Shown: piece after piece, positions 27,202-41,430 of the stretch
Layout of the letters: each line of letters begins with the position of its first letter
How positions within the stretch are numbered: position 1 is the first letter of the stretch
Notes under the pieces: generated by a model
The model's database searches: none
The model's input: only the letters and a program-made list of their open reading frames with translations
What the model was told of the DNA's origin: nothing
Program-made: the position numbers and the translations under genes
DNA from: Bacilli bacterium
GTDB lineage: Bacteria; Bacillota_I; Bacilli_A; RF39; UBA660
NCBI GenBank assembly: GCA_017941235.1
Contig: JAGAWU010000020.1
Span: 1-64,000, forward strand
Length of the DNA stretch: 64,000 bases
Reading direction: 5' to 3'

Positions 27202-27582
27202 ATGGAAAAATTAGAAATTATTAAAAACATAGCTGAACGTTCTGGAGGAGACATATATTTAGGAGTAGTAGGAGCTGTTAGAACTGGTAAAAGTACTTTT
27301 ATAAAAAAGGTCGTTGAAACGTTAATAGTTCCTAACATTGAAGATGAATATGAAAAGAAAAGAGCACTAGATGAAATACCCCAATCTGCTCAAGGTAAAA
27401 TGGTAATGACTACTGAACCTAAATTTGTACCAAATAATGCAGCTAAAATAAAAATAGATGATTTCACTTGTAAAGTAAGACTTATAGATTGTGTTGGATA
27501 TGTTATTAAAAACGCTAAAGGATTAGAAGATGAAAATGGACCTAGAATGGTTAAAACACCATGGGTGTCGTTGAATAAGTGA
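27202..27582 (+). CDS. spoIVA: spoIVA, 5' part (codons 1-121) interrupted by a mobile element
   Basis: SpoIVA is the mother-cell ATPase that polymerises on the forespore to form the coat basement layer. The fragment matches the N-terminus of the family: IAERSGGDIYLGVVGAVRTG with Walker A GAVRTGKST, QSAQGKMVMTTEPKFVPNNA, LIDCVGYVI and ENGPRMVKTPW. After Trp121 (TGG at 27562-27564) the frame enters the element, adds VSLNK and stops at TGA. In the family TPW is followed by YEEPIPF or similar; here YDEEIPF resumes at 41431. The fragment lacks most of the protein and should be inactive unless the element is excised. GGAGAG precedes the ATG. Confidence 0.95.
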   Translation: MEKLEIIKNIAERSGGDIYLGVVGAVRTGKSTFIKKVVETLIVPNIEDEYEKKRALDEIPQSAQGKMVMTTEPKFVPNNAAKIKIDDFTCKVRLIDCVGYVIKNAKGLEDENGPRMVKTPWVSLNK

Positions 27583-27587
27583 TACCC
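27562..27587 (+). other. left attachment junction (attL)
   Basis: The spoIVA codon TGG (27562-27564) is followed by 14 element bases and then GTGATACCC (27579-27587). The right junction has the mirror image GGGTATCAC (41404-41412), 15 bases, then TGG. TGG is the only identity across the crossover. Confidence 0.85.
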
Positions 27588-27631
27588 CAAATAAAAAATA
27601 AATAAATGCCCATAAAATAAGGGTTTAAGGC

Positions 27632-27685
27632 AATATTTCACTTTATTAGTTAAAGACTAATTTATAGAAAGTGAGATATTTTTTT
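27632..27685 (+). terminator. long hairpin with T-tract at the left end of the element
   Basis: AATATTTCACTTT (27632-27644) pairs with AAAGTGAGATATT (27668-27680) with one wobble; inside, ATTAGT pairs with ACTAAT (27645-27661). Six T residues follow and then the ATG of the next gene at 27686. It could stop transcription coming from the spoIVA promoter and also hides the only possible ribosome site (GTGAGA) of the next gene. Confidence 0.75.
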
Positions 27686-28699
27686 ATGAAAAATGAGAAA
27701 ATTTTTAAAAATCCCAATTTAATACCTTTGCTGATAAAATATGTAAAGGTAAATAAGGTAGTATTTCCTATTGAGAGAGTTAAGTATTTATCTAATGAAG
27801 AAGTTATAGAGATTTTAAAGGATTGTATTGATAATCAAATAATATATAATCCTAATTATGAAATGGTAAAGAATATTACTTTATTAGAAGATAAAGACCT
27901 AAAAGAAATATATCCTCTCATTAAGGAAAGTATGGATTATATAAATTATGATTATATGAGAGATATTAAAGATTTAATTAATAGTGTTAAATCTAGAAAG
28001 AAAGGTAAAAAGTATTCTTTTGAAGAACATTTAAAAGCATTAATTCTTGCTCTACTTTCTAATCATAGATGGGGAGATAATAATATAAGAGAAAATATGG
28101 ATACGATTGATAAAATATTTCATAATTATAATAAGAACTATTTAAAGATAGTAGATCCAAATATTTTAGTAAAGAAATTAAGGAATATTCATTGCACTAA
28201 TCCAATGATTAATAATCAAATGAAAGCATTATCAAGAAATATAATAGTATTAGAAAAAATTGAGAAAGATTATGGAAGTTTAGACAATTTTGTGAGTATT
28301 GAAACTCCTAATGACATTGCTAATATGTTTAATTCTGGTAAATATAAACTAACACAAGTTGGACGAGCTTTTGCTTATGATTATTTAAAACGTGTTGGTG
28401 TTAATACTTGTAAAAAGAGTTCTCAGTTAGAAAGATTATTTGGTAGTCATAGACTAGGAATTGTAGAAAATGCTAATGCAACAGAGCAACAAGTATTGAA
28501 TATAATTAAAAAGATAGCAATATTAAATGATTGTGATGAAATAATAGTAGAATCAATAATTCAACAATTTTGTTTATTAAGGTCTGCAAATATATGTGGA
28601 GAATATCCTAAATGTGAAAAATGCAAGATAAGAAAGTATTGTAATTATAATAAAAACAATTTAAATTCAGTATGCAAGGAAAACTTACATACTGAATAA
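27686..28699 (+). CDS. HhH-GPD / endonuclease III-like protein with iron-sulfur motif
   Basis: 337 residues from the ATG at 27686. The C-terminal two thirds follow the HhH-GPD fold of endonuclease III: EEHLKALILALLSNHRWGDN at the substrate side, a helix-hairpin-helix-like TQVGRAFAYDYLKRVGVNT, and a [4Fe-4S] motif with cysteines spaced C-x5-C-x2-C-x5-C near residues 310-325 (CGEYPKCEKCKIRKYC). The usual LPGVGxKTA loop is not conserved (KYKLTQVGRAFA), so substrate or activity may differ. The N-terminal 90 residues are not recognised. First gene of the element; a repair or defence role is possible but unproven. Confidence 0.75.
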   Translation: MKNEKIFKNPNLIPLLIKYVKVNKVVFPIERVKYLSNEEVIEILKDCIDNQIIYNPNYEMVKNITLLEDKDLKEIYPLIKESMDYINYDYMRDIKDLINSVKSRKKGKKYSFEEHLKALILALLSNHRWGDNNIRENMDTIDKIFHNYNKNYLKIVDPNILVKKLRNIHCTNPMINNQMKALSRNIIVLEKIEKDYGSLDNFVSIETPNDIANMFNSGKYKLTQVGRAFAYDYLKRVGVNTCKKSSQLERLFGSHRLGIVENANATEQQVLNIIKKIAILNDCDEIIVESIIQQFCLLRSANICGEYPKCEKCKIRKYCNYNKNNLNSVCKENLHTE

Positions 28700-28750
28700 T
28701 ATATTGTTTAAAAAACTATGATATTACGCATATTAATAATGTGAATTTAT

Positions 28751-28820
28751 TTGCATCAAATATATTGTTAATTGCATCACTTTATGATATAATGGTGCAA
28801 GCGGAAGGAGGATGATGCAA
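28751..28820 (+). promoter_or_regulatory. fic promoter with three TTGCATCA operator copies
   Basis: TTGTTA (28765-28770), a 17-base spacer, and TATAAT (28788-28793) with a TGA extension. TTGCATCA occurs at 28751-28758 and 28772-28779 (21 bases apart, two helical turns, the second inside the spacer), and inverted as TGATGCAA at 28813-28820 next to the ribosome site. This layout suits binding by a repressor, possibly the winged-helix end of the Fic protein itself. Confidence 0.7.
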
Positions 28821-28821
28821 T

Positions 28822-29874
28822 TTGAGAAGATTTAATTTAATGGAAGAATATAGTAGTATTATATCTAATAGTAATATTATTAACTTGATAAGTAAAATTC
28901 ATGAGTATAAAGGAAAACAATCATATTTATTAGATACTAAAAAAGACACATTAGAAACTTTATTAAAAGTTGCTAAAATTCAAAGTACTTCTTCATCAAA
29001 TAAAATTGAAGGTATTTATACAACTGATAAAAGAATTAATGAAATAGTAAATCAAAAATTAGAACCTAAAAATAGAAACGAAGAAGAAATTGCTGGTTAT
29101 AGAGATGTATTAACTTTAATACACGAAAATTATAATTATATTGATATTAACCAAAATACAATCTTACAATTACACAGAGATTTATATAAATATACTGGTT
29201 ATAGTTATGGTGGTAAATTTAAGAATTCTCAAAACTTTATTGAAGAAGAAAATGAAAAAGGAGAAAAGAAAATTAGATTTACACCACTATCTCCTGTTGA
29301 GACACCAATTGCAATTGAAGAACTGTGTAAAAATTATAATGAATTAGTTAATAATGAATCATGTGATTTACTAGTATTAATTCCTATATTTATATTAGAT
29401 TTTGTATCAATTCATCCATTTAATGATGGTAATGGTAGAATGAGTAGATTACTTACTTTACTATTATTATATAAAGCAAACTATATGGTAGGAAAATATA
29501 TTAGTATTGAAAAAATTATAGAAGAAACAAAAGAAAGTTATTATGACACATTAGAAAAAAGTTCTACAAATTGGCATAATAACGAAAATGACTATTCATA
29601 TTTTGTAGAATATTATTTAGGAATAATATTAAATGCTTATAAAGAATTTGATTCTAGAATAAATATTGTTGAAAACAAGAAAATAACTGCTTATGATAGA
29701 ATTATAGATATATTTAAAGATAATATTATTCCAATAGATAAAGCATTTATAACAAATAAATGTCCTGATTTAAGTGAAACTACAATTGAAAGAACTTTAA
29801 ATAAATTACTTAAAGAAGATAAAATTGTTAAAATCTCTGGTGGAAGATATACAAAATACAAATGGAATAATTAA
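28822..29874 (+). CDS. Fic family protein (class II, self-inhibited)
   Basis: Probable AMP-transferase acting on a protein target. 350 residues starting at TTG behind GGAGG. The N-terminal inhibitory helix motif (S/T)xxxE(G/N) is present as SNKIEG near residue 58; the Fic active-site motif HPFNDGNGRMSR lies near residue 200 with the catalytic His; a C-terminal winged helix (DKAFITNKCPDLSETTIERT) ends the protein. This domain order is common in stand-alone bacterial Fic proteins that need no separate antitoxin. Its own promoter and operators lie directly upstream and a terminator follows. Confidence 0.92.
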   Translation: MRRFNLMEEYSSIISNSNIINLISKIHEYKGKQSYLLDTKKDTLETLLKVAKIQSTSSSNKIEGIYTTDKRINEIVNQKLEPKNRNEEEIAGYRDVLTLIHENYNYIDINQNTILQLHRDLYKYTGYSYGGKFKNSQNFIEEENEKGEKKIRFTPLSPVETPIAIEELCKNYNELVNNESCDLLVLIPIFILDFVSIHPFNDGNGRMSRLLTLLLLYKANYMVGKYISIEKIIEETKESYYDTLEKSSTNWHNNENDYSYFVEYYLGIILNAYKEFDSRINIVENKKITAYDRIIDIFKDNIIPIDKAFITNKCPDLSETTIERTLNKLLKEDKIVKISGGRYTKYKWNN

Positions 29875-29916
29875 TTAAATAAATTATTTAAAATTTACAA
29901 ATAGCTAGAATTATGA

Positions 29917-29946
29917 AAGGTATGTTTAACGACATATCTTTTTTTG
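29917..29946 (+). terminator. intrinsic terminator of fic
   Basis: AAGGTATGT (29917-29925) pairs with ACATATCTT (29932-29940) with one G-U pair, followed by T7. Confidence 0.8.
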
Positions 29947-29974
29947 TTGTGTAAAAACGAAAGGAGAATGATAT

Positions 29975-31264
29975 ATGAATTTAAATTACGCAATATTTAG
30001 AAGTGAACCTATTATGACTACACAAGATTTATCACAAATAGGACCACATAATAAAAGAGAAAAACAGGCTTATAATTCTAATCCTGATATTAAATTAGAA
30101 CTAAGCAAAGATAATATAGAACTTGTACCACTTGCTGAAAAGTATTTAAAGGGATTTGATATACTAACAAAAGAATATAAAAAAGAACACGAAGAAAGAA
30201 TGAAAACCGAAAGGAAATCAAGAAAAAAGAAATATCACGATATGTTAAATAGTTCAAGAAATTGTGTTGCTGATGAATTAATGTTTACTGCAACTTCTGA
30301 ATTTTTTAAAAATATGACAAGAGAAGATATTAATGAATGGGCTAATACTTGCATGGAATTTGTTTATAATGATTTAGGCTATACAAAAGAACAAGTATTA
30401 CATGCAACGGTTCATCTAGATGAAAAAACACCACATGTTCATTGTGTTGTTGTTCCTCTTGTTAAAAAAATAGATAATAGAACAAATACTGAGAGATATA
30501 CAATATCTAAAAAACAATATATTAAAGATAAAATACACTTATCACAATTACAAGACTTATATCACAAAAGACTAACTGAAAAAGGATATGATTTAGAACG
30601 TGGTATTAAAGGTAGTGATAATAAGCACATTAAAATTAAAGAATATAAACGAGTAACTAAAAAATTAAATCAAGAATTAAATGTTAAAAATGATAGACTT
30701 GATAAGGCTGTTAATGACTTTGAAGATAAAATGAAATCAACTAAAAATATTCTTTTTGATAAAGAATATGTGAAAGTTAAAAAAGAAACTTTTGATAGTA
30801 TGAATAATGTTATTAAGGAATCTAAAAAAGTTATGGAAATGCAGCCAAAACTACAAACAATATTTAATGAAGTAGATAATTATGCTAATAGCTATAAATC
30901 ATTAGAAAAAGAAAATAAAAAGTATGAAAAAGAGATTACTAAACTTGAAAAAGATAATAAATATTTAGACCAAGAAAATAAAAGTTTAATAGCTAGATTA
31001 AATTATATATTTCAATTATTAAAGAAATTTTTAAGAAAACTATTGCAACGAGGTAATGAATATACCAAAGATGAAACTGCCAATGCCATTAAGGGCTACT
31101 ATGATAACGAAGTATTTGATATGCATGATGTTATTGGTATATCAAGAGGAACTACTAAACAAGATGAATTATATGATTATGTAGATGCACCTGACTATTA
31201 TAAAGAAAGAGTTAGAAATTATGAAGAAGAATATGATAAAGACGATTTTGAATTAAGTATGTAA
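29975..31264 (+). CDS. MobV/Pre-type relaxase
   Basis: DNA relaxase that nicks oriT and leads transfer of one strand during mobilization. 429 residues starting MNLNYAIFRSEPIMTTQDLS. The MobV signature is complete: the N-terminal HNKRE motif (GPHNKREKQAYNSNPDI) and the metal-binding HLDEKTPHVHCVVVPL near residues 149-165. The C-terminal half is a long coiled coil (residues 215-345), typical of Pre/Mob proteins. GGAG precedes the start. A sequence matching the pMV158-type nick region is present at 36,811-36,820 in the same element. Confidence 0.93.
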   Translation: MNLNYAIFRSEPIMTTQDLSQIGPHNKREKQAYNSNPDIKLELSKDNIELVPLAEKYLKGFDILTKEYKKEHEERMKTERKSRKKKYHDMLNSSRNCVADELMFTATSEFFKNMTREDINEWANTCMEFVYNDLGYTKEQVLHATVHLDEKTPHVHCVVVPLVKKIDNRTNTERYTISKKQYIKDKIHLSQLQDLYHKRLTEKGYDLERGIKGSDNKHIKIKEYKRVTKKLNQELNVKNDRLDKAVNDFEDKMKSTKNILFDKEYVKVKKETFDSMNNVIKESKKVMEMQPKLQTIFNEVDNYANSYKSLEKENKKYEKEITKLEKDNKYLDQENKSLIARLNYIFQLLKKFLRKLLQRGNEYTKDETANAIKGYYDNEVFDMHDVIGISRGTTKQDELYDYVDAPDYYKERVRNYEEEYDKDDFELSM

Positions 31265-31438
31265 AATTATTAAAAAACTCTTGATTTTTTAATTTGTTAG
31301 AGTGATAAATATTAAGACGGGAAACGGGATTAAATGTATATAATTTGTCAATAGCAAGGCATTATAGTAAAGTTTAATCTCCTATCTGGTCTTTTAAATA
31401 AAGTCGCTTAAAATGGCTAAAACGAAAGGAGAATAAAT

Positions 31439-31837
31439 ATGTTGTTAAGTGATAATACAAAAAGAGTTATAGATTTAATTGAAATATTTGATAATTTTAA
31501 AGATATTGATAAAATTAGATTAGCAATTTATTTACTAGAAAATAAAAAATTTAGTGTAGATTTTAATATAGGAGATATGATTATTTTATTAAAACAAGTA
31601 TTGAGTGTATTAGATCCAAATTATAGAAAAGTAATAACTAATTTTAGTAAATATAAGTATTTATTATTCTTTTCAGCTAAGTATTTAGAACTTACTGAAA
31701 AAGAAAAAAAACATTTCTCTATTGAAATGATATTTAATATATATGAAAATGATTTTAAAGATAAAGTTATTAATGATGAAATAAATAAACATTTATTAGT
31801 ATATGATTATTGTTATTCTCTGCTGAATAATGAGTAA
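31439..31837 (+). CDS. unrecognised 132-residue protein
   Basis: Starts MLLSDNTKRVIDLIEIFDNF behind GAAAGGAG. All-helical by appearance with a regular leucine/isoleucine pattern and no transmembrane segment. The leader of 170 bases between the relaxase gene and this one has no gene; it includes GACGGGAAACGGGA and TAGCAAGGC, whose role is unknown. The gene ends at a strong bidirectional terminator facing the glycosylation cassette. Confidence 0.65.
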   Translation: MLLSDNTKRVIDLIEIFDNFKDIDKIRLAIYLLENKKFSVDFNIGDMIILLKQVLSVLDPNYRKVITNFSKYKYLLFFSAKYLELTEKEKKHFSIEMIFNIYENDFKDKVINDEINKHLLVYDYCYSLLNNE

Positions 31838-31838
31838 A

Positions 31839-31876
31839 ACAAATCCCTAATAGGTATTATTAGGGATTTGTTTTTG
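31839..31876. terminator. bidirectional terminator
   Basis: ACAAATCCCTAATA (31839-31852) pairs perfectly with TATTAGGGATTTGT (31858-31871), followed by T5. It separates the 132-residue gene from the convergent gtr-type operon. Confidence 0.92.
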
Positions 31877-31895
31877 AATTAAACCTATATACTCA

Positions 31896-32849
31896 TTAAT
31901 CAAGTACACACTCAATGATATATCTAGGTCTCGCTTTAGTTTCCTTATATATTTTACCAATATATTCTCCTATCACACCAAGACATAGAGTTTGAATACC
32001 ACCTATTAACCAAATTGAACAAACAATAAACGTCCAACCAGATACAGTATTACCAATTAATTTCATAATAACAGAATAAACCAAAACTACAAAACTAAGT
32101 AGTAAAATAATAAATCCAATTGAAGTAATTATTCTTAAAGGTTTTATACTAAATGAAGTTATTCCATCAATAGCAAACGCTAACATTTTCTTTAATGGAT
32201 ATTTAGAATCTCCCGCTACTCTTTCGTTTCTTTCATAATAAGCAATATCAGTTTTATATCCAATTTGAGGAACTATACCTCTTAAGAATAAATTAACTTC
32301 TTTAAACTCACTTAAGCCTTCTAAAGCTCTTTTACTCATTAAACGACAGTCTGCATGATTAAATACAACTTCTACACCCATAACATTCATTAATTTATAA
32401 AAAAATTCTGCAGTAAACTTTTTAAAGAATGTATCTTTTTTTCTTGAACTTCGAACACCATAAACAACATCAGCACCGGCATTATACTTTTTTATCATAT
32501 CATCCATTACATTAATATCATCTTGTAAATCAGCATCCATACTAATACAGATATCTGCGTGATTTTTTGCATACATTAAACCTGCAAGCAAGGCATTTTG
32601 ATGACCTCTGTTTCTAGTTAAATTAATTCCTACGTACATATCATTTTCTTTATGTACCTTAGTTATAATTTCCCACGTTTTATCCTTAGAACCGTCATTA
32701 ACTAAAACCACTTTACTGTTTTTACTAATTAAACCTTCTTCCATTAAACTACTCATTTTTTTATCAAGTTCTTTTTTTGTTAGTGGTAGTGCTTCTTCTT
32801 CGTTATAACAAGGTATAACTAAATTTAATACTAAATTATTTTTCTTCAT
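31896..32849 (-). CDS. GtrB-type polyprenyl-phosphate glycosyltransferase (GT2)
   Basis: Transfers a sugar from a nucleotide donor to undecaprenyl phosphate on the cytoplasmic face. 317 residues with the GT-A fold motifs VIPCYNEEEALP, VNDGSKDKTW, the DxD-type SMDADLQDD, and two C-terminal membrane helices (IITSIGFIILLLSFVVLVYS and WTFIVCSIWLIGGIQTLCLG), as in GtrB/DPM1 enzymes. Last gene of a four-gene operon that also has a GtrA-like flippase and a GT-C-type enzyme. It overlaps the preceding gene by 14 bases. Confidence 0.9.
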   Translation of the reverse strand: MKKNNLVLNLVIPCYNEEEALPLTKKELDKKMSSLMEEGLISKNSKVVLVNDGSKDKTWEIITKVHKENDMYVGINLTRNRGHQNALLAGLMYAKNHADICISMDADLQDDINVMDDMIKKYNAGADVVYGVRSSRKKDTFFKKFTAEFFYKLMNVMGVEVVFNHADCRLMSKRALEGLSEFKEVNLFLRGIVPQIGYKTDIAYYERNERVAGDSKYPLKKMLAFAIDGITSFSIKPLRIITSIGFIILLLSFVVLVYSVIMKLIGNTVSGWTFIVCSIWLIGGIQTLCLGVIGEYIGKIYKETKARPRYIIECVLD

Positions 32850-33153
32850 TTACTTCTTCCTTCTTTCTAAATAACACTATAACTTCTATGCCTAATGTTA
32901 ATATCATTATTGTCATATATTCTAGATAAGTATAAATTCCTCTTTCTTCATTATTTACTACTTCAAACATCAAATCGCCAGCTTCTTCTTTTCCATTCAC
33001 TTCTAAAATACCATTCGGATAATAATCAAATTTTTCTTTATATGCGATATAAACTTCTAAATCACTTGCACTGTCCGAACTTAATCTTACGGTATAACTA
33101 CCACCTTCATAAGTTTTATCTAAATAAAAATCTGTATATTTTTTATCTTTCAA
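32836..33153 (-). CDS. small membrane-anchored protein of the gtr-type operon
   Basis: 105 residues. A soluble, beta-rich N-terminal part (YEGGSYTVRLSSDSASDLEV, YYPNGILEVNGKEEAGDLMF) is followed by one membrane helix (YLEYMTIMILTLGIEVIVLF) and a charged tail. It overlaps both neighbours (4 bases upstream as ATGA, 14 bases downstream), so it is translationally coupled to the glycosyltransferases. It may be the detached C-terminal extracellular domain of the preceding GT-C protein, whose end has a similar beta-rich region. Family not recognised. Confidence 0.65.
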   Translation of the reverse strand: MKDKKYTDFYLDKTYEGGSYTVRLSSDSASDLEVYIAYKEKFDYYPNGILEVNGKEEAGDLMFEVVNNEERGIYTYLEYMTIMILTLGIEVIVLFRKKEEVNEEK

Positions 33154-34904
33154 ATCATTTTTTTAAAGTCTTTTTCATACACAACTTCATTTTTAGTTAT
33201 TAACTCCAACTTATAAGTTGCATCCTCTATTTCATTAACTTTAAATTTTAATCTTATTTTATTAAAACTATCATATAAATCTAATGTTTGGGTGATAACC
33301 GTTTCTTTATTTAAAGAAGTATACTTAACCTTGGTTACACTGTCTTTTGCTACTATATTTTCTTTATAACTAATACCTGTATATTTATTAAAACTAAAAG
33401 CGAATAATGCTAAAGTTAAGACTAGTATAATACATTTAAAATATTTATAAAATTTGAATTTCTCATAATTGGTATATAAAGTATCATAAGAACATGTACC
33501 TATTAGTATTAACCACGGTAAGAATGATAAACCATATCGTGGACATACTTCCCAAACGAGATAGAAAAATACTGCTCCAAACAAGCTAATTGCTATAATT
33601 GATTTCTTACCACTTTTATAAATATTAATAAGAGATATTATTGCCATAAACATAACTACTATTTTAGAGAACTGTAATAAATAATTTATAACAATATTTT
33701 TATCTTCCAATAAATAAGAATAAGACGGATTAAAGTCATTAACTAATTCTAAATATTTTTGATAACTATAATCTCCTTTACCCCAAACAGAAACTAATTT
33801 AACTACTAATAATTTCACTGTTCCAAATGGACCTAAATCACTCAATCTGTTTTTTATTTCTTTAATATTTAAATCTGTTCTTTCTGAAACGTTTAAGGCA
33901 CTACTACTTAGGTTATAATCATCTTGGGAATAATATCCATAACTTTTTTCATTAACTCCCATCATAATCCAATGTGTCATTGGAAATTCTTTATCAACAT
34001 TAACATTTGTGAAAAAATTATTCTCAATAGTACCAATACAAGTTATTGTTAATATTGCCCCAATTATTATTGGTGCAAACTTCTTTAACACTATTAATAT
34101 CTTTTTAGTAAATATTAAATATACAAAATATGCTACTAGTATAAATATTGCAACAGCCCTTATCCTATAACCAATTATTGCGATGATACCGATCAATAAG
34201 CCATATAGAACGTTAGATTTTAAATTTTTTTCGTCTTTTGTTTTAACTATTAAATAAATTAAAATACTGGCAAATGGTAACATTAATACATCTGTATAGT
34301 AATATGATACATATAAATAAAAGATTGGAGATAATACACATATAAATAAACTTAATAAGCCTTTATTGATATCCCAAACTTTATTAACAGTTTTATAAGT
34401 AAATAATGACATAACAGAAATACATATTGTACTTAATAAAGAAAATAAAATTTGATTGCTAATAGGAATAATCTTTTGTAACCCATATAAAATAATCAAT
34501 AAAAATCTATTATTAGGATAAACAGAATAGTAAACATTATTTAATATTGAGCCTGTATCATTTAAACTATTTATTTCTGTTAAAATATGTATTAAATCAA
34601 CTTGAGGAATACTACTAATTACAAAAGTACTTATAAGTAATAAGATAAATTGCAATCCTAATAAAATACCTACTATTATTTTCTTTTTCTTATCATCAAG
34701 TTTGATAATAACCTTATATAATTTAATTAATAAAAACAAATATACAATTGAACCAACAATTAATACTAATGGATTTAAATAATCATAACTACGATTAATA
34801 TAGAAAAATATCGCTCCTATTAAAGAAATAGAAAAACATATTATGGTAAAAATTAACAAGAATTTATTAACAAAATTAAACATTTTATTTACTAGATTTT
34901 TCAT
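33150..34904 (-). CDS. GT-C-type multi-spanning glycosyltransferase
   Basis: 584 residues with about twelve hydrophobic helices. The loop after the first helices (PQVDLIHILTEINSL, YSVYPNNRFLLIILYGLQKI) and the SYYYTDVLMLPFASILIYLI and GYRIRAVAIFILVAYFV segments follow the pattern of ArnT/PMT-like (GT39/GT83-type) enzymes that take a sugar from polyprenyl phosphate outside the cell. The last 90 residues are a non-membrane beta-rich region. The stop is TGA. In gtr cassettes this position is taken by the serotype-specific transferase. Acceptor unknown: teichoic acid, glycan or protein. Confidence 0.8.
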   Translation of the reverse strand: MKNLVNKMFNFVNKFLLIFTIICFSISLIGAIFFYINRSYDYLNPLVLIVGSIVYLFLLIKLYKVIIKLDDKKKKIIVGILLGLQFILLLISTFVISSIPQVDLIHILTEINSLNDTGSILNNVYYSVYPNNRFLLIILYGLQKIIPISNQILFSLLSTICISVMSLFTYKTVNKVWDINKGLLSLFICVLSPIFYLYVSYYYTDVLMLPFASILIYLIVKTKDEKNLKSNVLYGLLIGIIAIIGYRIRAVAIFILVAYFVYLIFTKKILIVLKKFAPIIIGAILTITCIGTIENNFFTNVNVDKEFPMTHWIMMGVNEKSYGYYSQDDYNLSSSALNVSERTDLNIKEIKNRLSDLGPFGTVKLLVVKLVSVWGKGDYSYQKYLELVNDFNPSYSYLLEDKNIVINYLLQFSKIVVMFMAIISLINIYKSGKKSIIAISLFGAVFFYLVWEVCPRYGLSFLPWLILIGTCSYDTLYTNYEKFKFYKYFKCIILVLTLALFAFSFNKYTGISYKENIVAKDSVTKVKYTSLNKETVITQTLDLYDSFNKIRLKFKVNEIEDATYKLELITKNEVVYEKDFKKMI

Positions 34905-35322
34905 AACTATCCTTCTTAAAAACTATTAATTTACTTAATAAATAGTTTCCTACAATTACTAATATCTGACTTACCAGTTTAAATATTTTATCATTACCTT
35001 TTAATATAGTTACAAACAAAAACATTATTACCATATCAAGTAAAAGTGTTGATACTCTTGCACCAGTAAAAGTAATAAATTCTTTAAATTTATTTTCATT
35101 TTTACTATTAAATACAAACTCTCTATTTGTAAAATACGCAAATAAAACTCCAGCTATCCATGAAAAAAGATTTGCTATCTGTAACTCTACACTAACATTA
35201 GGATTTAATATAGTCAAACTCAACATATAATAAACAATTAAACTAATTAATGTAGTTAAACCCCCAAAGATTAAATAATTAATAATTTCCTTATATTTTT
35301 GATATAATTCTTTCACATACAT
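34885..35322 (-). CDS. GtrA-like flippase
   Basis: About 145 residues with four membrane helices, beginning MYVKELYQKYKEIINYLIFG. The GtrA-family signature is the first helix YLIFGGLTTLISLIVYYMLS and the motif FAYFTNREFVFNSK. The family is thought to flip polyprenyl-linked sugars made by GtrB. I place the start at the ATG at 35322 behind GGTGGTGAT, not at the first in-frame ATG. First gene of the operon; it overlaps the GT-C gene by 20 bases. Confidence 0.9.
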   Translation of the reverse strand: MYVKELYQKYKEIINYLIFGGLTTLISLIVYYMLSLTILNPNVSVELQIANLFSWIAGVLFAYFTNREFVFNSKNENKFKEFITFTGARVSTLLLDMVIMFLFVTILKGNDKIFKLVSQILVIVGNYLLSKLIVFKKDSYEKSSK

Positions 35323-35379
35323 CACCACCAATAAATCTGCATAATAATATTTTATCATATATTTCTATAAATAACTATT

Positions 35380-36066
35380 TCAACCTTTAAAAATAGAATC
35401 ATTTTTTTTATAATAATCAGCATAGATCCAATCTACTTGATGAAAATAAAAAGACAACTGTTTTTTATCAATTTCACTATGAGGCAAAAATATATTATAT
35501 AAATTACTTTTGCGATTACTTATTACCTTAATATAAAATTTTTCTATTTCTATAATATCTTTAGAATTGCTTAAACTTTTTGATTCTAAAAATAAATTTG
35601 CTTTTTGTAATGAATGATGAATATTATTTATGTCTTGTTTAGCATAATAGCGAGTATTATAAACTAAATTTGCTAAAAACATTTTCTTAAAACCATTTAA
35701 AAATATTTCTGGACATTCATGAAAATCAGTAACAACAAATAGTACTTTATTATATTTATTTTTTAAAGTTTGTTCTAATATAATTAGAAGCTCATTGTGA
35801 TTTATTGTATAAGTCTCCCTAACATAACCAATATACTTATCTAATATAGATACAAAATTTTCTTCTGAAGTAATTTCATTTTTTTCATAAAGTAATTTAA
35901 AATTTAATTTTATAGTACCTTTTTTTATTTTTTTAACAAGTTTATGTAATACTTCTAAGCTTAATAATTTATATATTTCACCACTGCAACTATAAATCCA
36001 CAATAGCGAGTGTTTCTTCATTCGCCTTATTTGTATTGTGTCTTTCTTCAAGTAATCTCTTTGCAT
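35380..36066 (-). CDS. unrecognised 228-residue protein
   Basis: Begins MQRDYLKKDTIQIRRMKKHS, behind AAAGGA at 8-base spacing. Soluble, mixed helix and strand; includes KVLFVVTDFHECPEIFLNGF and a C-terminal SFYFHQVDWIYADYY. No motif I can name. It lies 57 bases upstream of the gtrA-like gene on the same strand and may be part of that operon, or may be an independent cargo gene. Confidence 0.6.
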   Translation of the reverse strand: MQRDYLKKDTIQIRRMKKHSLLWIYSCSGEIYKLLSLEVLHKLVKKIKKGTIKLNFKLLYEKNEITSEENFVSILDKYIGYVRETYTINHNELLIILEQTLKNKYNKVLFVVTDFHECPEIFLNGFKKMFLANLVYNTRYYAKQDINNIHHSLQKANLFLESKSLSNSKDIIEIEKFYIKVISNRKSNLYNIFLPHSEIDKKQLSFYFHQVDWIYADYYKKNDSIFKG

Positions 36067-36198
36067 TTAAATTTTCCTTTCAATAGTTTTATTTTTACTG
36101 CAATTAAATTATAACACAAATCAGCAAAAAATAGTCTTGAAATAAGCAAAATGTCAATATTTTTGTTTTAAATGGGAAAATTATTATAGGTGGTAGCT

Positions 36199-36639
36199 AT
36201 GATAGATTTTCAAAGATTAAAAGATATAAGAGAAGATAATGATATAAATCAAGAAACAATGTCTAAAATATTAGGTGTTCCACGTTCTACTTATTCAATG
36301 TGGGAACTAGGTATAAGTGTTATTCCTTTAAAACCTTTATGTGATTTTGCAGATTATTTTAATATTACTTTAGATTATGCTTTAGGCTTAACAAATAACA
36401 GAAATAGCAAGAATTTAATTAAAGGATTGAACTTACAAATACTAGCAAACAATATGAAAGAAATTAGAAAGAAAAATAATCTTTCACAAGAAAATATAGC
36501 AGATATTCTTAAGGTAACTCAAAGTTGTATAGTTAAATATGAAAAAGGTAGAGTTTATATTTCTACTGAAAACTTATATAAATTCGCTAAAGAATTTAAA
36601 ATATCAATTAACGAGTTATGTGGTAAAACTAAAAAATAA
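36199..36639 (+). CDS. XRE-family regulator with two helix-turn-helix domains
   Basis: About 146 residues. Two HTH_3 domains in tandem: residues 4-58 (IREDNDINQETMSKILGVPR followed by STYSMWELG) and residues 82-142 (IRKKNNLSQENIADILKVTQ followed by SCIVKYEKG). The start is the ATG at 36199 behind AGGTGG; the GTG three codons earlier is part of that site. Divergent from the 228-residue gene and upstream of the oriT-like region. Likely a regulator of element or cargo genes. Confidence 0.85.
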   Translation: MIDFQRLKDIREDNDINQETMSKILGVPRSTYSMWELGISVIPLKPLCDFADYFNITLDYALGLTNNRNSKNLIKGLNLQILANNMKEIRKKNNLSQENIADILKVTQSCIVKYEKGRVYISTENLYKFAKEFKISINELCGKTKK

Positions 36640-36662
36640 TATCAAATTTTATATTATATGAT

Positions 36663-36717
36663 GGAATGACAGATAAAAATAGGTACCCATAAACTCCTGC
36701 CATTCTGTCATTTTTTA
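36663..36717 (+). terminator. possible terminator after the double-HTH gene
   Basis: AATGACAG (36665-36672) pairs with CTGTCATT (36705-36712), followed by T6. The 32-base loop is long, so it may be more than a simple terminator. Confidence 0.55.
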
Positions 36718-36739
36718 TATAAATCCCACACCTATTAAA

Positions 36740-36880
36740 GCGAAAATTCAAAAGAAATTTCATAACTAATGAATTTTCGCGATAGACTTATTTGTAAGCC
36801 AAATAAGTAACACACTACCAAGTTGGCAAAAGCCAACTAGGAATAGTGTGCCAAAGGAGAGCCTTCGGGAACCCATTTAA
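36740..36880. other. candidate origin of transfer (oriT) with three nested inverted repeats
   Basis: A gene-free stretch with: GCGAAAATTC (36740-36749) facing GAATTTTCGC (36771-36780), perfect; ACTTATTTG (36786-36794) facing CAAATAAGT (36800-36808), perfect; and CACACTA (36811-36817) facing TAGTGTG (36844-36850), enclosing AGTTGGC-AAAA-GCCAACT. On the minus strand the bases from 36817 read TAGTGTGTTA, which equals the nick region of pMV158 (TAGTGTG/TTA) as I remember it, the type substrate of MobV relaxases. A MobV relaxase is encoded at 29975-31264. Confidence 0.6.
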
Positions 36881-36926
36881 GCACCAATACTACAAACTAT
36901 CGTAAGTAGTAAAGGTGCCTTTTTTA
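36881..36926 (+). terminator. strong terminator-like hairpin after the oriT-like region
   Basis: GCACC (36881-36885) and TACTAC (36888-36893) pair with GTAGTA (36905-36910) and GGTGC (36913-36917), with symmetric AA bulges, followed by CTTTTTT. It suggests a plus-strand transcript across the region. Confidence 0.75.
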
Positions 36927-37009
36927 TTTGTCTTACGACTTCATAAAAAAGTGAAAAAACTATCCCCGCTTTCATCAGCATAGCTGACAAAACGTGCGTC
37001 GTTTTTTCA

Positions 37010-37058
37010 AAATAAAAATAGCATAATGCTAATCTTACGAAAAGCAAAATGCTATTTT
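37010..37058 (-). terminator. terminator after the 37052-37489 gene
   Basis: AAAATAGCAT (37015-37024) pairs perfectly with ATGCTATTTT (37049-37058); the minus strand continues TATTTTTATTTT. Between here and 36926 another 8-bp inverted repeat, GAAAAAAC facing GTTTTTTC, encloses TCAGC-ATA-GCTGA. Confidence 0.65.
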
Positions 37059-37489
37059 CTTATTTTAGGTATTAGTCGTTCAACTTTAGTTTGTTCTTTA
37101 TCTGTTATTTTATATAGAACAACTAATACTATTGCTGTCGCTATATAGGCAATAGTCATTGCTATATAGTTTTGTGAAAAGAATGTTTCAAATAACGCAA
37201 CAGGACATAACGCTATTCCTAAAAATCCTACTATATAAAATGTCTTGTCGCTATATTTTCTTGTTATTTGTTTTTCAGGATCTGTATCATCTTTTTCAGT
37301 CCATGTTCTACCCAACATAGACCAATTTTTTGTAAATATTGCATTACCAAAATTAGCTATTCCTATAAAGAACCAACCAAGCGATACAAATTTATAATCA
37401 TTTATAATAGGAATTATTATAACCATTATTGTTGCTAAAATAATACCAATAATTTGTACCTTATTTAAATACATTTTTATTTTTTGCAT
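37052..37489 (-). CDS. four-helix membrane protein paired with an XRE regulator
   Basis: 145 residues with four hydrophobic segments (VQIIGIILATIMVIIIPIIN, LGWFFIGIANFGNAIF, FYIVGFLGIALCPVALFETF, YIAMTIAYIATAIVLVVLYK). Starts behind AAAGGAGG and overlaps the XRE gene by 29 bases. The pair, HTH regulator plus small membrane protein, is often seen in mobile elements; function here is unknown. The stop codon lies in the downstream terminator. Confidence 0.7.
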   Translation of the reverse strand: MQKIKMYLNKVQIIGIILATIMVIIIPIINDYKFVSLGWFFIGIANFGNAIFTKNWSMLGRTWTEKDDTDPEKQITRKYSDKTFYIVGFLGIALCPVALFETFFSQNYIAMTIAYIATAIVLVVLYKITDKEQTKVERLIPKIRK

Positions 37490-37979
37490 TTTTCTTCGCC
37501 TCCTTTAATCTGTTTTCATCTAATATTTCAACTATAAGTTCATTAGTAACATTTTGATATTCTAAATCTTGTTTTGTTTCTATTGCACGTTCTCTTTCTT
37601 CTTCAGAAAGGTTGTCTTTGGCTAATTCTTGATTTAAAGTATCAATCATTAAATCATTATTACTAATACTTGCCTTTGCCATCATCCAAGCATCTTCTAG
37701 TTTATCTCCTCTTAAATTTTTATAGTAATTTCTAATAAAAGGATTAAGAGTAGTTAATTGAGTTCCTAAACCTATCATACTTAACATATCATTATAATTT
37801 AAATTTATATGTTTACTTATCTTTTTAAGTATTTTAGGATTAGGTAATTCTCTTTCTCCAGATTCTATTTTAGATAATTCGGCATTACTAATACCAACTG
37901 CATTGGCTAATTGTCTTTGAGATAAACCTTTGTTTTCTCTTGCTTTTGCGATTGCCTCGCCTATGTTTTGCTTTGGCAT
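37461..37979 (-). CDS. XRE-family repressor of the element
   Basis: 172 residues. Residues 6-62 are a canonical HTH_3 domain (IAKARENKGLSQRQLANAVG, then ISNAELSKIESGERELP); the rest is helical and charged, ending in a Lys-rich tail. Divergent from the genes at 38161 onward, with a shared 180-base region holding two face-away promoters and repeated TGTTAACG boxes. This is the layout of an immunity-type master repressor. Confidence 0.88.
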   Translation of the reverse strand: MPKQNIGEAIAKARENKGLSQRQLANAVGISNAELSKIESGERELPNPKILKKISKHINLNYNDMLSMIGLGTQLTTLNPFIRNYYKNLRGDKLEDAWMMAKASISNNDLMIDTLNQELAKDNLSEEERERAIETKQDLEYQNVTNELIVEILDENRLKEAKKNAKNKNVFK

Positions 37980-38000
37980 AAAACTTCACCACCTGCATTA

Positions 38001-38130
38001 ATCATACCACTATCGTTAACGAAAGTCAACACATTTGATAAAAATGTTAATAAAAGTGTTGACAAGTTCGTAATTATGATGTATATTTAATGTGTTACCG
38101 AGTGTTAACGTTATAAAAACAAATGTTAAC
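38001..38130. promoter_or_regulatory. divergent promoters with GTTAAC-type operators
   Basis: Minus strand: TTGACT (38029-38024), 17 bases, TATGAT (38006-38001) driving the XRE gene, with the palindrome CGTTAACG (38014-38021) in the spacer. Plus strand: TTGACA (38059-38064), 17 bases, TATATT (38082-38087) driving 38161 onward. Further GTTAACG and TGTTAACT copies lie near 38103 and 38124. The repeats are probable binding sites of the XRE repressor. Confidence 0.75.
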
Positions 38131-38160
38131 TCACAAAAAAGAAAGGAGGAAAAGATATGA

Positions 38161-38427
38161 ATGAGGAAAACAAGACATCTAGACTTAACCGACCATAGAA
38201 TATGGAAAGATAAGAATATCACATTTGAAGCAAAAGATATTTACTCTTATCTATATATAGAAGGCTTTGATAGAACAATAGCTAATGTAAATATTGGTAG
38301 GATACAAGGAAAAATTAAGGGTTTAAAGAATGTCGCATTTAGAAAGAACTTACAACTATTAGAAAAACACAAATATATTACTTTCAAAGAATACGACAGA
38401 GGATTATACGAATACACAATTTGCTAG
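38161..38427 (+). CDS. small helix-turn-helix-like protein, first gene of the right-hand operon
   Basis: 88 residues beginning MRKTRHLDLTDHRIWKDKNI. The stretch ITFEAKDIYSYLYIEGFDRT with VNIGRIQGKIKGLKNVAFRK resembles the winged-helix N-terminal region of plasmid replication initiators, but the protein is short. An alternative ATG four bases upstream (38157), better spaced from AGGAGG, opens a 13-codon ORF in another frame, so expression may be coupled or unusual. Confidence 0.55.
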   Translation: MRKTRHLDLTDHRIWKDKNITFEAKDIYSYLYIEGFDRTIANVNIGRIQGKIKGLKNVAFRKNLQLLEKHKYITFKEYDRGLYEYTIC

Positions 38428-38451
38428 AATAGACAAAATCGCTAGTAAATA

Positions 38452-38607
38452 AGGTACAATAAATGTTCGGAGATTTATGATAGTACCTAGCCAAAAGGCT
38501 AAACTGCTTCAATCCTAGAGACAGGATTTAAAATAAAGTCTCAGGATACTATTACCTTTTTTTCAGTTATATTAGTATGACTTGTAGAAAATTTTACAAG
38601 TTTTTTT
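38452..38607 (+). ncRNA. structured leader with alternative pairings and two T-tracts
   Basis: AGGTAC (38452-38457) can pair with GTACCT (38483-38488). The same strand AAGGTA with ATA can instead pair with TAT and TACCTT (about 38550-38558), directly followed by T7. Between are hairpins TAGCC-AAAA-GGCTA (38488-38501) and AATCCT/AGGATT (38511-38528), whose loop GAGAC matches GTCTC at 38539-38543 as a possible pseudoknot. A second terminator, CTTGTA facing TACAAG with T7, lies at about 38581-38607. Mutually exclusive pairings before a T-tract suggest attenuation of the next gene. Class unknown. Confidence 0.5.
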
Positions 38608-38639
38608 GTGTTTAAAAATAAATGAAAGGAGAATGATAT

Positions 38640-38918
38640 ATGAATAATGATATTAATAATTTAAAATATGTGGAAGTTCCTATGATTGTTTTATTAGATA
38701 ATGATATATCTTCCACATCAAAACTATTAATGGGATTAATTACTACTTTAACTATGAAAGAAGGATTTTGTTATGCTAGTAATAAATATTTAAGTAACCT
38801 TCTAAAAGTATCAAGAAGAACAATTACAAGTTGCATTTCATCTCTTAAAAGAAAAAATTATATTAAAGTAGAAAATGATCCTAATATGAGAAAAATTTAT
38901 TTAGCAAATTTCTTCTAA
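38640..38918 (+). CDS. winged-helix protein (replication-initiator-like fragment or regulator)
   Basis: 92 residues starting MNNDINNLKYVEVPMIVLLD. Residues 20-85 look like a winged helix: SSTSKLLMGLITTLTMKEGF, NKYLSNLLKVSRRTITSCIS, then LKRKNYIKVENDPNMRKIYL. This is the fold seen at the N-terminus of plasmid/IME replication proteins and in MarR/helix-turn-helix regulators. GGAG precedes the start. A conditional leader with two terminators precedes it. Confidence 0.65.
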   Translation: MNNDINNLKYVEVPMIVLLDNDISSTSKLLMGLITTLTMKEGFCYASNKYLSNLLKVSRRTITSCISSLKRKNYIKVENDPNMRKIYLANFF

Positions 38919-39048
38919 TATAAGTAGCAATATATTACTATTGTGTATAGCAAGATGTTTCTAACAGAATAAATAATATTAATAAATAATTATAATAAAT
39001 AAAATAATTTAAAATTTATTTAAATAATTAAAAAGAAAGGACTGATAT

Positions 39049-39468
39049 ATGAATGTAGATTTAAATGAAATAATTATCTCTGGTAATATAACTAATATTA
39101 CAGACAATAATCAAGATTATATTAAATTTGCTTTAAAAACAATTAAATATAATAAGAGTTATGTTTATTCAAGTTTAAATATTAATAGGAATCTTTATAC
39201 AATTTATAAAGATTTTTTTGTTAAGGAAAAAAAGGTGTTTATAAAGGGTTATCTCAATTCTTATTCTACAAGTAATAATATACAACTTTTTATAACTGTT
39301 ACAGATATATCTGATAATAAAGAAGATATATTAAACGGAAGAAGATCTCCCCATATTAGATGTGACCCAGATGGAGTTATGGTATGGAATGGGAAAAGAT
39401 GCGAAAGCGAAGAACCTTCCGAAGAAGAATCCAAAGAAATGGAAGAATTATTGAAAGATTTTAGATAG
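39049..39468 (+). CDS. SSB-like OB-fold protein
   Basis: 139 residues. Residues 1-95 follow the single-stranded DNA-binding OB fold: an opening EIIISGNITNIT strand, and the typical C-terminal strands KVFIKGYLNSYSTSNNIQLF followed by ITVTDIS. The tail is unusual: a segment PHIRCDPDGVMVWNGKRC with two cysteines, then a very acidic end (SEEPSEEESKEMEELLKDF) like the acidic tip of SSB, though without the DDDLPF motif. Its transfer-related partners are in the same operon. Confidence 0.7.
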   Translation: MNVDLNEIIISGNITNITDNNQDYIKFALKTIKYNKSYVYSSLNINRNLYTIYKDFFVKEKKVFIKGYLNSYSTSNNIQLFITVTDISDNKEDILNGRRSPHIRCDPDGVMVWNGKRCESEEPSEEESKEMEELLKDFR

Positions 39469-39509
39469 TAGGTGTTAATTATGAAATATTAGAAAGGTGC
39501 GTGATAATT

Positions 39510-39569
39510 ATGATAAAAAGTAATTTTAATAAAAGTTTATGCATAAAATTGGAGTGTGGAGGTATATAA
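39510..39569 (+). CDS. possible 19-residue peptide upstream of the recombinase operon genes
   Basis: ATG at 39510 behind AAGGTG opens a 19-codon ORF (MIKSNFNKSLCIKLECGGI) whose TAA is followed directly by the ATG of the next gene at 39570. A shorter ORF (MKY) lies just before. These may only serve translational coupling; there is no independent support for a functional peptide. Confidence 0.3.
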   Translation: MIKSNFNKSLCIKLECGGI

Positions 39570-39764
39570 ATGTATGAGACACTAGAATTTTATGATAGTA
39601 ATGGTTTTGATTTAAAAGAAGTTTTAAAGAGTTGTATATATAAATATTATATTGCTAATAAGAATTTAGATATTAGTTCTAAAAAAGTATTTAAAACGGA
39701 CAAAAAAAATAGTATAATTAAATCAACTAATGAAGTGAAAGTGTTGTCTAGTGAAAGGAGTTAA
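39570..39764 (+). CDS. unrecognised 64-residue protein just upstream of the recombinase
   Basis: Begins MYETLEFYDSNGFDLKEVLK behind GGAGG; the N-terminal LKEVLKSCIYKYYIANKNL is helical and the C-terminal half is basic. Its stop lies two bases before the GTG of the serine recombinase, and the recombinase ribosome site is inside its last codons. Position and size make it a candidate recombination directionality factor, but sequence alone does not show that. Confidence 0.6.
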   Translation: MYETLEFYDSNGFDLKEVLKSCIYKYYIANKNLDISSKKVFKTDKKNSIIKSTNEVKVLSSERS

Positions 39765-39766
39765 AA

Positions 39767-41359
39767 GTGTATAATAGAAATAGATATACAATAGACAATA
39801 CAATATTTAAAATAGCCATTTATATAAGACTATCTCGTGAAGATGGTGATGATTTAGAATCAGAAAGTGTTACTAATCAACGAAGTTTATTAATTGGTTA
39901 TTTAAAAGCACAAGGATTAGTTGCAGTTGATATATATGTTGATGATGGTTATACAGGTACTAATTTTGAACGTCCAGAATTTAAAAGAATGCTACAAGAC
40001 ATTGAAAATGGAAAAATAAATATGGTTATAACAAAAGATTTATCAAGACTTGGAAGAGACCATATAATGACAGGTTATTATGTTGAAACCTATTTTCCTG
40101 AAAACGATGTTAGATATATAGCTGTAAATGATGATATAGATACTTTTTTTGAAACTAGTGGTAGTGATATGATGCCATTTAAGTTAAGTATGAACGATAT
40201 GTATGCAAAAGATATTTCTAAAAAAGTTCGTTCTAACTTACTTCAAATGAAAAAAGATGGTAAGTTTTGTGGGAGTTCTACTCCTTATGGTTATATGAGA
40301 GACCCAAATAATAAACATCAGTTAGTTCCAGATCCAGAGACTGCTCCTGTTGTAAAAAGAATATTTGATTTATATGTTGCAGGTTATGGTAGTTCACAAA
40401 TTGCTGAAATATTAACAAGAGAAGAATTACCAACACCAATAATGTATAAATACTCTGGTTCAAAATTAAGTAAATTTGACCATCCTGAAATATGGAAACA
40501 CACATCTGTTAGCAATATCATAAAAAATAGAGTTTATATTGGAGATTTAATTCAACACAGATTTCAAAAAGTTAGTTATAAGGTTAAAAAGAGAAAAAGT
40601 TTACCTGAAAGCGAATGGTGTATAAAAGAAAATGCACATGAAGCACTTGTAGATAGAAAAACATTTGAAATAGCACAAAGTATTAAAGATTCTTCAAATA
40701 CTTATAATCCAGAACGTAGAAATGTTGAATATGTATTATCTGATTTAGTTTATTGCAAAGATTGTGGTGCTAGAATGAGTATTAGTTATGATAAAAAAAG
40801 AGATAGAGTTACAATGAATTGTAATAACTATCGTAAGTTTAGTAAGTATGATATATGTTTTTCTCATTATATTAACTATACTAAATTAGAAAATACTGTC
40901 TATAACAAATTAAGCACTATGGCTAATCAATATATTAATGATAAAGATGAGTTTGAAAGTATTATTAAAAATCAATATGTTGATCCTAAACAAGATAAAC
41001 TAAAAAAGATTGATGAACTTAATTTAAAGATAGCTGAATTAAAAAGAAAACAAGACTCTTTATATGATGATAAGTTTAATAATATTATAAGTGTAGAAAC
41101 TTATCAAAGATTATTTAAAACTACTGAAGAAGATATTAAAACTGCAAACGAAAAATTAGAAAAATTAAAAGAAGAAATTTCTAGTATAAATGAAGATTCC
41201 TCTTGTTATGTTGAATATTTAGATATAATTAAAAGTTTTCTTGATATGAAAAATCCAACAAGAGAGATTATGAATAGATTAATTGATAAGATATATGTAA
41301 CTAAAGATAAAAAACTAGAAATTCATTATAGAATTAAAAAAAGTGAAGTATTAGTATAG
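39767..41359 (+). CDS. large serine recombinase (integrase/excisionase of the element)
   Basis: 530 residues, starting at GTG behind AAAGGAG. The catalytic domain has IYIRLSRED with the nucleophile Ser near residue 23, the DDGYTGTNFERPEF and ITKDLSRLGRDHIMTGYYVE motifs, then the recombinase domain (PYGYMRDPNNKHQLVPDPET) and a zinc-ribbon region (CKDCGARM, then a second pair of cysteines) with a terminal coiled coil. It belongs to the large serine recombinases used by Tn4451/Tn5397-like elements and by the skin elements. It is the last gene of the element, 71 bases from the right junction, and should catalyse excision and integration at spoIVA. Confidence 0.95.
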   Translation: MYNRNRYTIDNTIFKIAIYIRLSREDGDDLESESVTNQRSLLIGYLKAQGLVAVDIYVDDGYTGTNFERPEFKRMLQDIENGKINMVITKDLSRLGRDHIMTGYYVETYFPENDVRYIAVNDDIDTFFETSGSDMMPFKLSMNDMYAKDISKKVRSNLLQMKKDGKFCGSSTPYGYMRDPNNKHQLVPDPETAPVVKRIFDLYVAGYGSSQIAEILTREELPTPIMYKYSGSKLSKFDHPEIWKHTSVSNIIKNRVYIGDLIQHRFQKVSYKVKKRKSLPESEWCIKENAHEALVDRKTFEIAQSIKDSSNTYNPERRNVEYVLSDLVYCKDCGARMSISYDKKRDRVTMNCNNYRKFSKYDICFSHYINYTKLENTVYNKLSTMANQYINDKDEFESIIKNQYVDPKQDKLKKIDELNLKIAELKRKQDSLYDDKFNNIISVETYQRLFKTTEEDIKTANEKLEKLKEEISSINEDSSCYVEYLDIIKSFLDMKNPTREIMNRLIDKIYVTKDKKLEIHYRIKKSEVLV

Positions 41360-41371
41360 GTAAAAAATACG

Positions 41372-41393
41372 ATTGCTTTGGAGCAATTTTTAA
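41372..41393 (+). terminator. terminator of the recombinase gene
   Basis: ATTGCT (41372-41377) pairs with AGCAAT (41382-41387) around TTGG, followed by TTTTTA. It lies just inside the right end of the element. Confidence 0.7.
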
Positions 41394-41403
41394 AAAGACT
41401 TAT

Positions 41404-41430
41404 GGGTATCACGAAAACAGGTCATACTGG
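41404..41430 (+). other. right attachment junction (attR)
   Basis: GGGTATCAC (41404-41412), 15 bases, TGG (41428-41430), then spoIVA from TAT at 41431. In a closed circle GGGTATCAC and the left-end GTGATACCC would flank 32 bases with TG of the shared TGG exactly at the centre, a 50-bp site of the size expected for a serine integrase attP. Confidence 0.85.

Follow-up and report, generated by a model that had tools for sequence, protein, structure and literature searches.

In the 64,000-nucleotide stretch of DNA analysed here (the window), an element inserted in spoIVA encodes a MobV-family relaxase, and kilobases away from the relaxase gene lies a cluster of hairpins with a motif resembling known MobV nick sites. 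This raises the question whether the cluster is the origin of transfer (oriT) of the element and, if so, why it does not lie beside mobV. The element extends approximately from position 27565 to 41430 inside spoIVA (PF09547, PF20438, PF20439), the C-terminal part of which resumes after 41430 (Table 1). From left to right it carries the genes for the HhH-GPD-like protein, Fic, MobV and orf132, the gtr cargo, the double-HTH regulator, the candidate oriT, orf145/XRE, orf88, HTH, orf139 (SSB-like by eye, without a family match) and the serine recombinase. The combination of an integrase, a relaxase, an oriT and defined ends in spoIVA without genes for a conjugation pore is that of an integrative and mobilizable element (IME), and neither pore nor coupling-protein families were found among the element proteins scanned. 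VirD4/TraG-type proteins are encoded elsewhere in the host genome, which is only suggestive as a pointer to a helper. The MobV translation contains the MOBV motifs HNxR and HxDExxPHxH (as GPHNKRE and HLDEKTPHVH) and matches MobM structures (4lvi etc.), the phmmer match being limited to residues 94–227; judged by these matches the protein is distant from MobM. Relatives of the Fic and HhH-GPD-like genes are present in other spoIVA elements (L035, L104).

The element splits spoIVA between the codons for ...KTPW and YDEE at the core TGG, and the reading frame would be restored by excision. The split gene is the sole match to the SpoIVA middle domain in the host genome, and spoIVA halves adjoin a recombinase of the same type in family loci of several other species. 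A skin-like developmental role of the spoIVA element is possible; no such role was found in a literature search.

Table 1. Positions of the attachment cores, genes and oriT features of the spoIVA element in the window.
Feature	Position	Strand	Remarks
Left att core TGG in spoIVA	27562..27564		spoIVA N half 27202-27582; junction read from sequence
HhH-GPD-like protein	left part of element, beside Fic protein		by eye; without Pfam match
Fic protein, SoFic type	28822-29874		adjoins mobV; PADLOC SoFic E 8e-39
mobV, MobV-family relaxase, putative nicking enzyme	29975..31264	+	PF01076 105 bits; NCBIfam MobV equivalog 110 (cut-off 100)
orf132	31439..31837	+	conserved neighbour of mobV
gtr-type cargo	31896..36066	-	profile matches
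GT2 glycosyltransferase (gtr cargo)	31896-32849	-	
PMT_2-type (gtr cargo)	33150-34904	-	
GtrA (gtr cargo)	34885-35358	-	
orf228 (gtr cargo)	35380-36066	-	
Double-HTH regulator	36190..36639	+	at edge of cargo slot
Hairpin A	36740..36780 (arms 36740-36750/36770-36780, 11 bp)	-	TGAATTTTCGC/GCGAAAATTCA; found in subset of relatives
Hairpin B	36786..36808 (arms 36786-36794/36800-36808, 9 bp)	-	ACTTATTTG-GCTTA-CAAATAAGT; begins 2 nt 3' of nick
Nick motif TAGTGTG/TTA	36808..36817	-	predicted nick 36811 (G) / 36810 (T); matches mapped pMV158 nick sequence exactly (PMC5090054, PMC5863519)
Hairpin C (nick hairpin)	36811..36850	-	16 bp in nested stems; plus-strand loop AAAA; equivalent of pMV158 IR3/IR1
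Hairpin D	36851..36868		CCAAAGG/CCTTCGG; CAAAGGG...CCCTTTTG conserved in relatives
Hairpin E, terminator-like	36881..36926	+	T-run; near-invariant loop motif ACAAACTATCGTAAGT
orf145 + XRE regulator (XRE 37461-37979)	37052..37979	-	constant neighbour of oriT
orf88, HTH_36 protein, orf139	38161..39468	+	conserved between oriT and recombinase
Large serine recombinase (integrase)	39767..41359	+	PF07508, PF00239, PF13408
Right att core TGG in spoIVA	41428..41430		reading frame runs on into spoIVA C part

The nick motif TAGTGTGTTA occurs on the minus strand at 36817–36808, exactly where the earlier note had placed it, and a scan of the 64-kb window found no other exact copy. Taken alone the 10-mer is weak evidence, because 12 of 100 shuffled windows also contain at least one copy (0.13 expected per window). 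The 43-nt composite of nick motif, hairpin and mirrored CACAC/GTGTG arms has a single copy in the window, and 100 shuffles gave none. In this composite the motif stands at the end of hairpin C, laid out as GCACAC, a 7-bp stem with a 4-nt loop and TAGTGTG/TTA; a longer hairpin, with the outer stem CACACTA/TAGTGTG and the nick at its 3' end, encloses the inner stem, which reads AGTTGGC-TTTT-GCCAACT on the minus strand. Folded as single-stranded DNA, the minus strand of 36735–36870 forms four hairpins, A–D, at -34.7 kcal/mol as compared to -9.1 ± 2.5 for shuffled sequences (z = -10.2), and the plus strand folds to -33.0 kcal/mol. The inverted repeats reported by the earlier note are real, but the three (A, B, and C) lie side by side in tandem rather than nested, and D adds a fourth. 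Pairing of the IR2 type around the nick (GGTAGT-GTGTT-ACTATC) is by eye possible in most relatives, with only three pairs in the window type, and the pairing that covaries beside the nick is hairpin B. IR2, the third inverted repeat, is a feature of pMV158 and was not taken as a requirement for an oriT of its group.

The pMV158 oriT is published as GCACACACTTTATGAATATAAAGTATAGTGTG/TTATACTTTAC (PMC5863519) and the nicked strand in the window reads GCACACTATTCCTAGTTGGCTTTTGCCAACTTGGTAGTGTG/TTACTTATTTGG. A comparison of the two, in line with the alignment suggested by the earlier note, gives the nick sequence and the layout of the published 43-nt pMV158 oriT (MobM, MOBV1) in common, i.e., TAGTGTG/TTA and a 7-bp hairpin with a 4-nt loop inside a longer hairpin that has CACAC/GTGTG at its base and the nick at its 3' end. 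The window differs from pMV158 in the sequence of the inner stem, which ends 10 nt before the predicted nick as compared to 8 nt in pMV158, in having the separate covarying hairpin B past the nick, in that IR2 appears not to be kept in the window type, and in that its oriT is found kilobases from mob and on the opposite strand, whereas that of pMV158 is just upstream on the coding strand, a location that is usual but does not define the group. A characterised MobV IME, IMESag-rpsI of Streptococcus agalactiae with the relaxase MobSag, is similarly chromosomal, has the oriT TAGTGCG/TTA and lacks a conjugation pore of its own; its oriT is, however, directly upstream of mobSag and its integration site differs (PMC5090054). 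The nearest plasmid relatives of the window MobV that were found, about 36–38% identical, are encoded by small Priestia plasmids (NZ_CP127880, NZ_CP040364, NZ_CP018881). These have a hairpin and the nick-like site GAGTGTG/TTC, but they replicate as plasmids and the site precedes mobV by about 70–80 nt and is on its coding strand; nick-like sites are also found directly upstream of staphylococcal plasmid MobV genes. No DNA similar to the oriT region was found in the plasmid collection or in viral contigs, a phage search gave just two unrelated 26-base matches (E 0.5), and the family core sequence AACACACTACCAAGT was not found in the literature searched.

A pattern of the approximately 43-nt core matched 15 of 385 genomes of the order, while the reversed control pattern matched none of the 385. 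The same core is present in 35 stretches (contigs) of public genomes, by title mostly gut and rumen metagenome-assembled genomes of Bacilli, Erysipelotrichaceae, and Tenericutes, some being filed as Clostridia. Comparison of 29 distinct copies showed that the predicted transfer site is nearly identical in some 30 related mobile elements that reside in gut bacteria. The search pattern fixed 18 bases in the two TAACACACTA/ATAGTGTG arms, so that their invariance in these copies is by construction, and TAACACACTACCAAGTYGG-spacer-CCAACTAGGAATAGTGTG is almost invariant even where the pattern was free. The host genome itself carries a second such element approximately 53 kb further on the same contig, with a MobV that is 65% and an oriT region that is 81% identical to those of the window. 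It has the same gene order without the gtr genes, and its oriT is located 4.0 kb from mobV beside the XRE/orf145 pair.

Where the sequences do vary, pairing is mostly retained. At loci found through mobV, described below, the arms of the outer stem change in step (CACAC/GTGTG, CCCAC/GTGGG, and CCCCC/GGGGG), and hairpin B takes seven different forms among the 29 copies, fully or nearly fully paired when counted per sequence, including ACTATCTT/AAGATAGT, ACTTATTTG/CAAATAAGT, ACTAACTT/AAGTTAGT, and ATTAACTC/GAGTTAAT. A C-A opposition on the plus strand in the inner stem of 20 of the 29 copies corresponds to G-T on the minus strand. The strand that keeps its pairing is therefore the nicked (minus) strand, because G-T forms a wobble there and C-A is a mismatch on the plus strand; for L036, which is of the G-T type, the nicked strand folds to -17.2 kcal/mol and the other strand to -14.2 kcal/mol.

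The same base pairs bear on whether the hairpins could be transcriptional punctuation or a structured RNA, i.e., terminators around the regulator genes with a nick motif present by coincidence. An RNA copied from the plus strand and ending at hairpin E would have the C-A mismatch in its inner stem in 20 of the 29 copies, a search of Rfam found no known RNA family at the region, and, whichever genes adjoin them, the loci retain the nick motif, its mirrored arms and the placement of these with respect to mobV. On the other hand the region lies between gene ends and the terminator-like hairpin E, with its T-run, directly follows. On balance we regard punctuation as highly unlikely. Nicking does not account for hairpin E or for its near-invariant loop motif, which counts against that explanation. 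A simple terminator scan omitted this hairpin, the loop of which is longer than the limit of the scan. The loop motif is almost invariant in 28 relatives, TCTTACGA recurs at 36931 and 37033, and hairpin E is perhaps a protein-binding site or a regulated terminator.

The order of genes in the family is conserved, i.e., mobV, variable cargo, oriT, XRE, orf88, HTH, orf139, and recombinase, and the distance from oriT to the recombinase is 2.5–3.1 kb in most members. Because the region shares its side of the element with the recombinase and the HTH proteins, it could be conceived as a recombination or replication site, either an accessory site of the serine recombinase or a rolling-circle origin at which a replication protein acts. 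We consider this extremely unlikely. The element has its attachment sites at its two ends, in spoIVA; the sequence matches known MobV nick sites; and recombinases that share only 23–32% identity with the one in the window accompany the same core, mobV then lying on the other side.

Taken as a MobV-type oriT, the region has to be reconciled with its distance from mobV. From the end of mobV at 31264 to oriT we measured 5.55 kb, in accordance with the 5.5 kb of the earlier note, and oriT is 3' of mobV with the nick on the opposite strand. In all 13 pairs in which a mobV of this class and the core are found on the same contig, mobV is 5' of oriT at a distance of 2.3–7 kb, and the nicked strand is opposite to the mob coding strand (13/13). 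A nick region just upstream of mobV (29975 in the window), which by the earlier note would refute its candidate, was looked for in nine family members, where only a conserved terminator-like and ribosome-binding stretch is found; the candidate thus withstands this check, and an exact nick motif adjoining mobV is rejected. A kilobase-scale separation on opposite strands is the normal layout of the family.

The earlier note had further proposed that the gtr cargo was inserted between a mob gene and an oriT that were ancestrally adjacent. Gene annotation confirms that gtr is situated exactly between the two, and a distant relative, L100, has its oriT 48 bp from the mobV stop codon. The latter oriT, however, follows mobV at its 3' side and has the opposite strand, whereas plasmid oriTs precede the gene. 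The gtr genes are absent from 11 of the 13 paired elements, including the second element of the host genome, where mobV and oriT are all the same separated by 2.3–7 kb, with other cargo in between or, in the nearest gtr-less relative (L107, MobV 85% identical), a single gene of 712 aa. Because these eleven relatives show the same separation, gtr did not cause it, and insertion as the cause is contradicted and unlikely. What stands of the proposal is a weaker form, in which gtr is, by comparison of the loci, one occupant of a variable cargo slot between mobV and oriT; among the fetched family loci it is confined to the window and to the L035 group, which is closely related to it with a MobV identity of 96%. 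In L035 itself (G188), a gtr-bearing sister element, mobV is broken into two reading frames.

Evidence that does not depend on the core pattern was obtained from MobV genes of the same class on contigs without the core, six of which had enough flanking DNA. In all six loci a single nick hairpin is present, always on the expected strand and never on the other, as compared to 0–0.05 expected from resampled sequence. The nick sequences are TAGTGTG, TAGTGGG, and AAGTGTG before /TT, and the outer arms again match (CACAC with GTGTG, CCCAC with GTGGG) except in L101, which speaks against the MobV-type oriT. L100, with a MobV 50% identical to that of the window, has the order recombinase, mobV, and oriT. 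In a tree of the relaxases 12 of the 13 common-type elements fall together (support 96/88), the exception being the second element of the host genome, and L004 has a common-type oriT yet its MobV groups with variant-type MobV at modest support, so that oriT type and relaxase tree do not agree perfectly, another point against that reading. Two related elements with the nick types TAGTGGG and TAGTGTG lie side by side in L093 (G360 contig C17:25001-45000). The host genome also encodes a second, distant MobV class (L109, contig C4:5001-23000) that resembles the window in its PF01076 relaxase and in a hairpin on a CCCCC/GGGGG base stem with the nick-like TAGGGGG/TTA; it differs in that this oriT of its own, CCCCC...TAGGGGG/TTA, precedes mob by about 54 nt on the strand that codes for mob. 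With variant nick hairpins and MobV sequences available in pairs, the way in which MobV relaxases choose their target can readily be tested.

The core is also found without mobV. L090, from a genome that is 96% complete, and L092 carry it in genomes without any Mob_Pre match, and in L091 it lies without mobV beside a broken recombinase. Such loci could represent passengers or remnants, or some contigs may be missing. Together with the broken mobV of L035 they could indicate that the oriT in the window is a relic, out of use by its MobV. This is very unlikely, as the window has an intact mobV and as, in many species, a core that hardly varies and compensatory substitutions indicate that selection has been maintained.

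Taken together, it is very probable that the region is a MobV-type oriT on the minus strand that serves the MobV of the element from a position far from mobV that is normal for the family, i.e., a MobV-type oriT in a new arrangement. The earlier note's identification of a MobV oriT is in agreement with the conserved core, the pMV158-like layout, the covarying hairpins, the constant linkage to MobV, and the lack of a nick motif upstream of mobV. From conservation, folding, covariation, strand bias, linkage, and orientation, which are read directly in the DNA, we infer nicking and its exact position, strand transfer with its polarity, and the use of a helper as follows. The serine recombinase would first excise the element. 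Once hairpin C is extruded from the minus strand, MobV would most likely bind it and cut TAGTGTG/TTA between 36811 and 36810. In pMV158, MobM shifts IR3 to IR1 and thereby exposes the nick (PMC5863519); a similar switch is plausible at hairpin C, where the nick would come to lie exposed beside the inner hairpin, in the manner of IR1, once the CACAC/GTGTG base stem opens. With its 5' end in front, the minus strand would pass through the conjugation pore of a helper element into the recipient, in the order hairpins B and A, the cargo, mobV, and finally the recombinase and control genes. The oriT is situated between the variable cargo slot and the conserved control and integration module.

The finding would provide a clear oriT for a large and apparently undescribed family of mobilizable elements of uncultured gut and rumen Bacilli, in which oriTs are rarely known, and the usual expectation that a MobV oriT is just upstream of mob would overlook the whole family. 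DNA can be scanned directly for the signature, by which candidate passengers without a relaxase come to light. One candidate is the compact element of L090 (L090:5099-12945), which has, besides the oriT core, genes for a serine recombinase, a small XRE protein and a protein of 1544 aa that belongs to no family. Mobilizable elements that lack a relaxase and use that of a helper are known in principle (PMC5704250). It is tempting to speculate, but only tentatively, that a shared oriT specificity links complete MobV IMEs to oriT-only elements, most clearly that of L090, which travel on the MobV of the IMEs. If so, the near-invariant core would be held by its use in trans across many species, and an oriT freed from mobV would allow cargo and oriT to be reshuffled.
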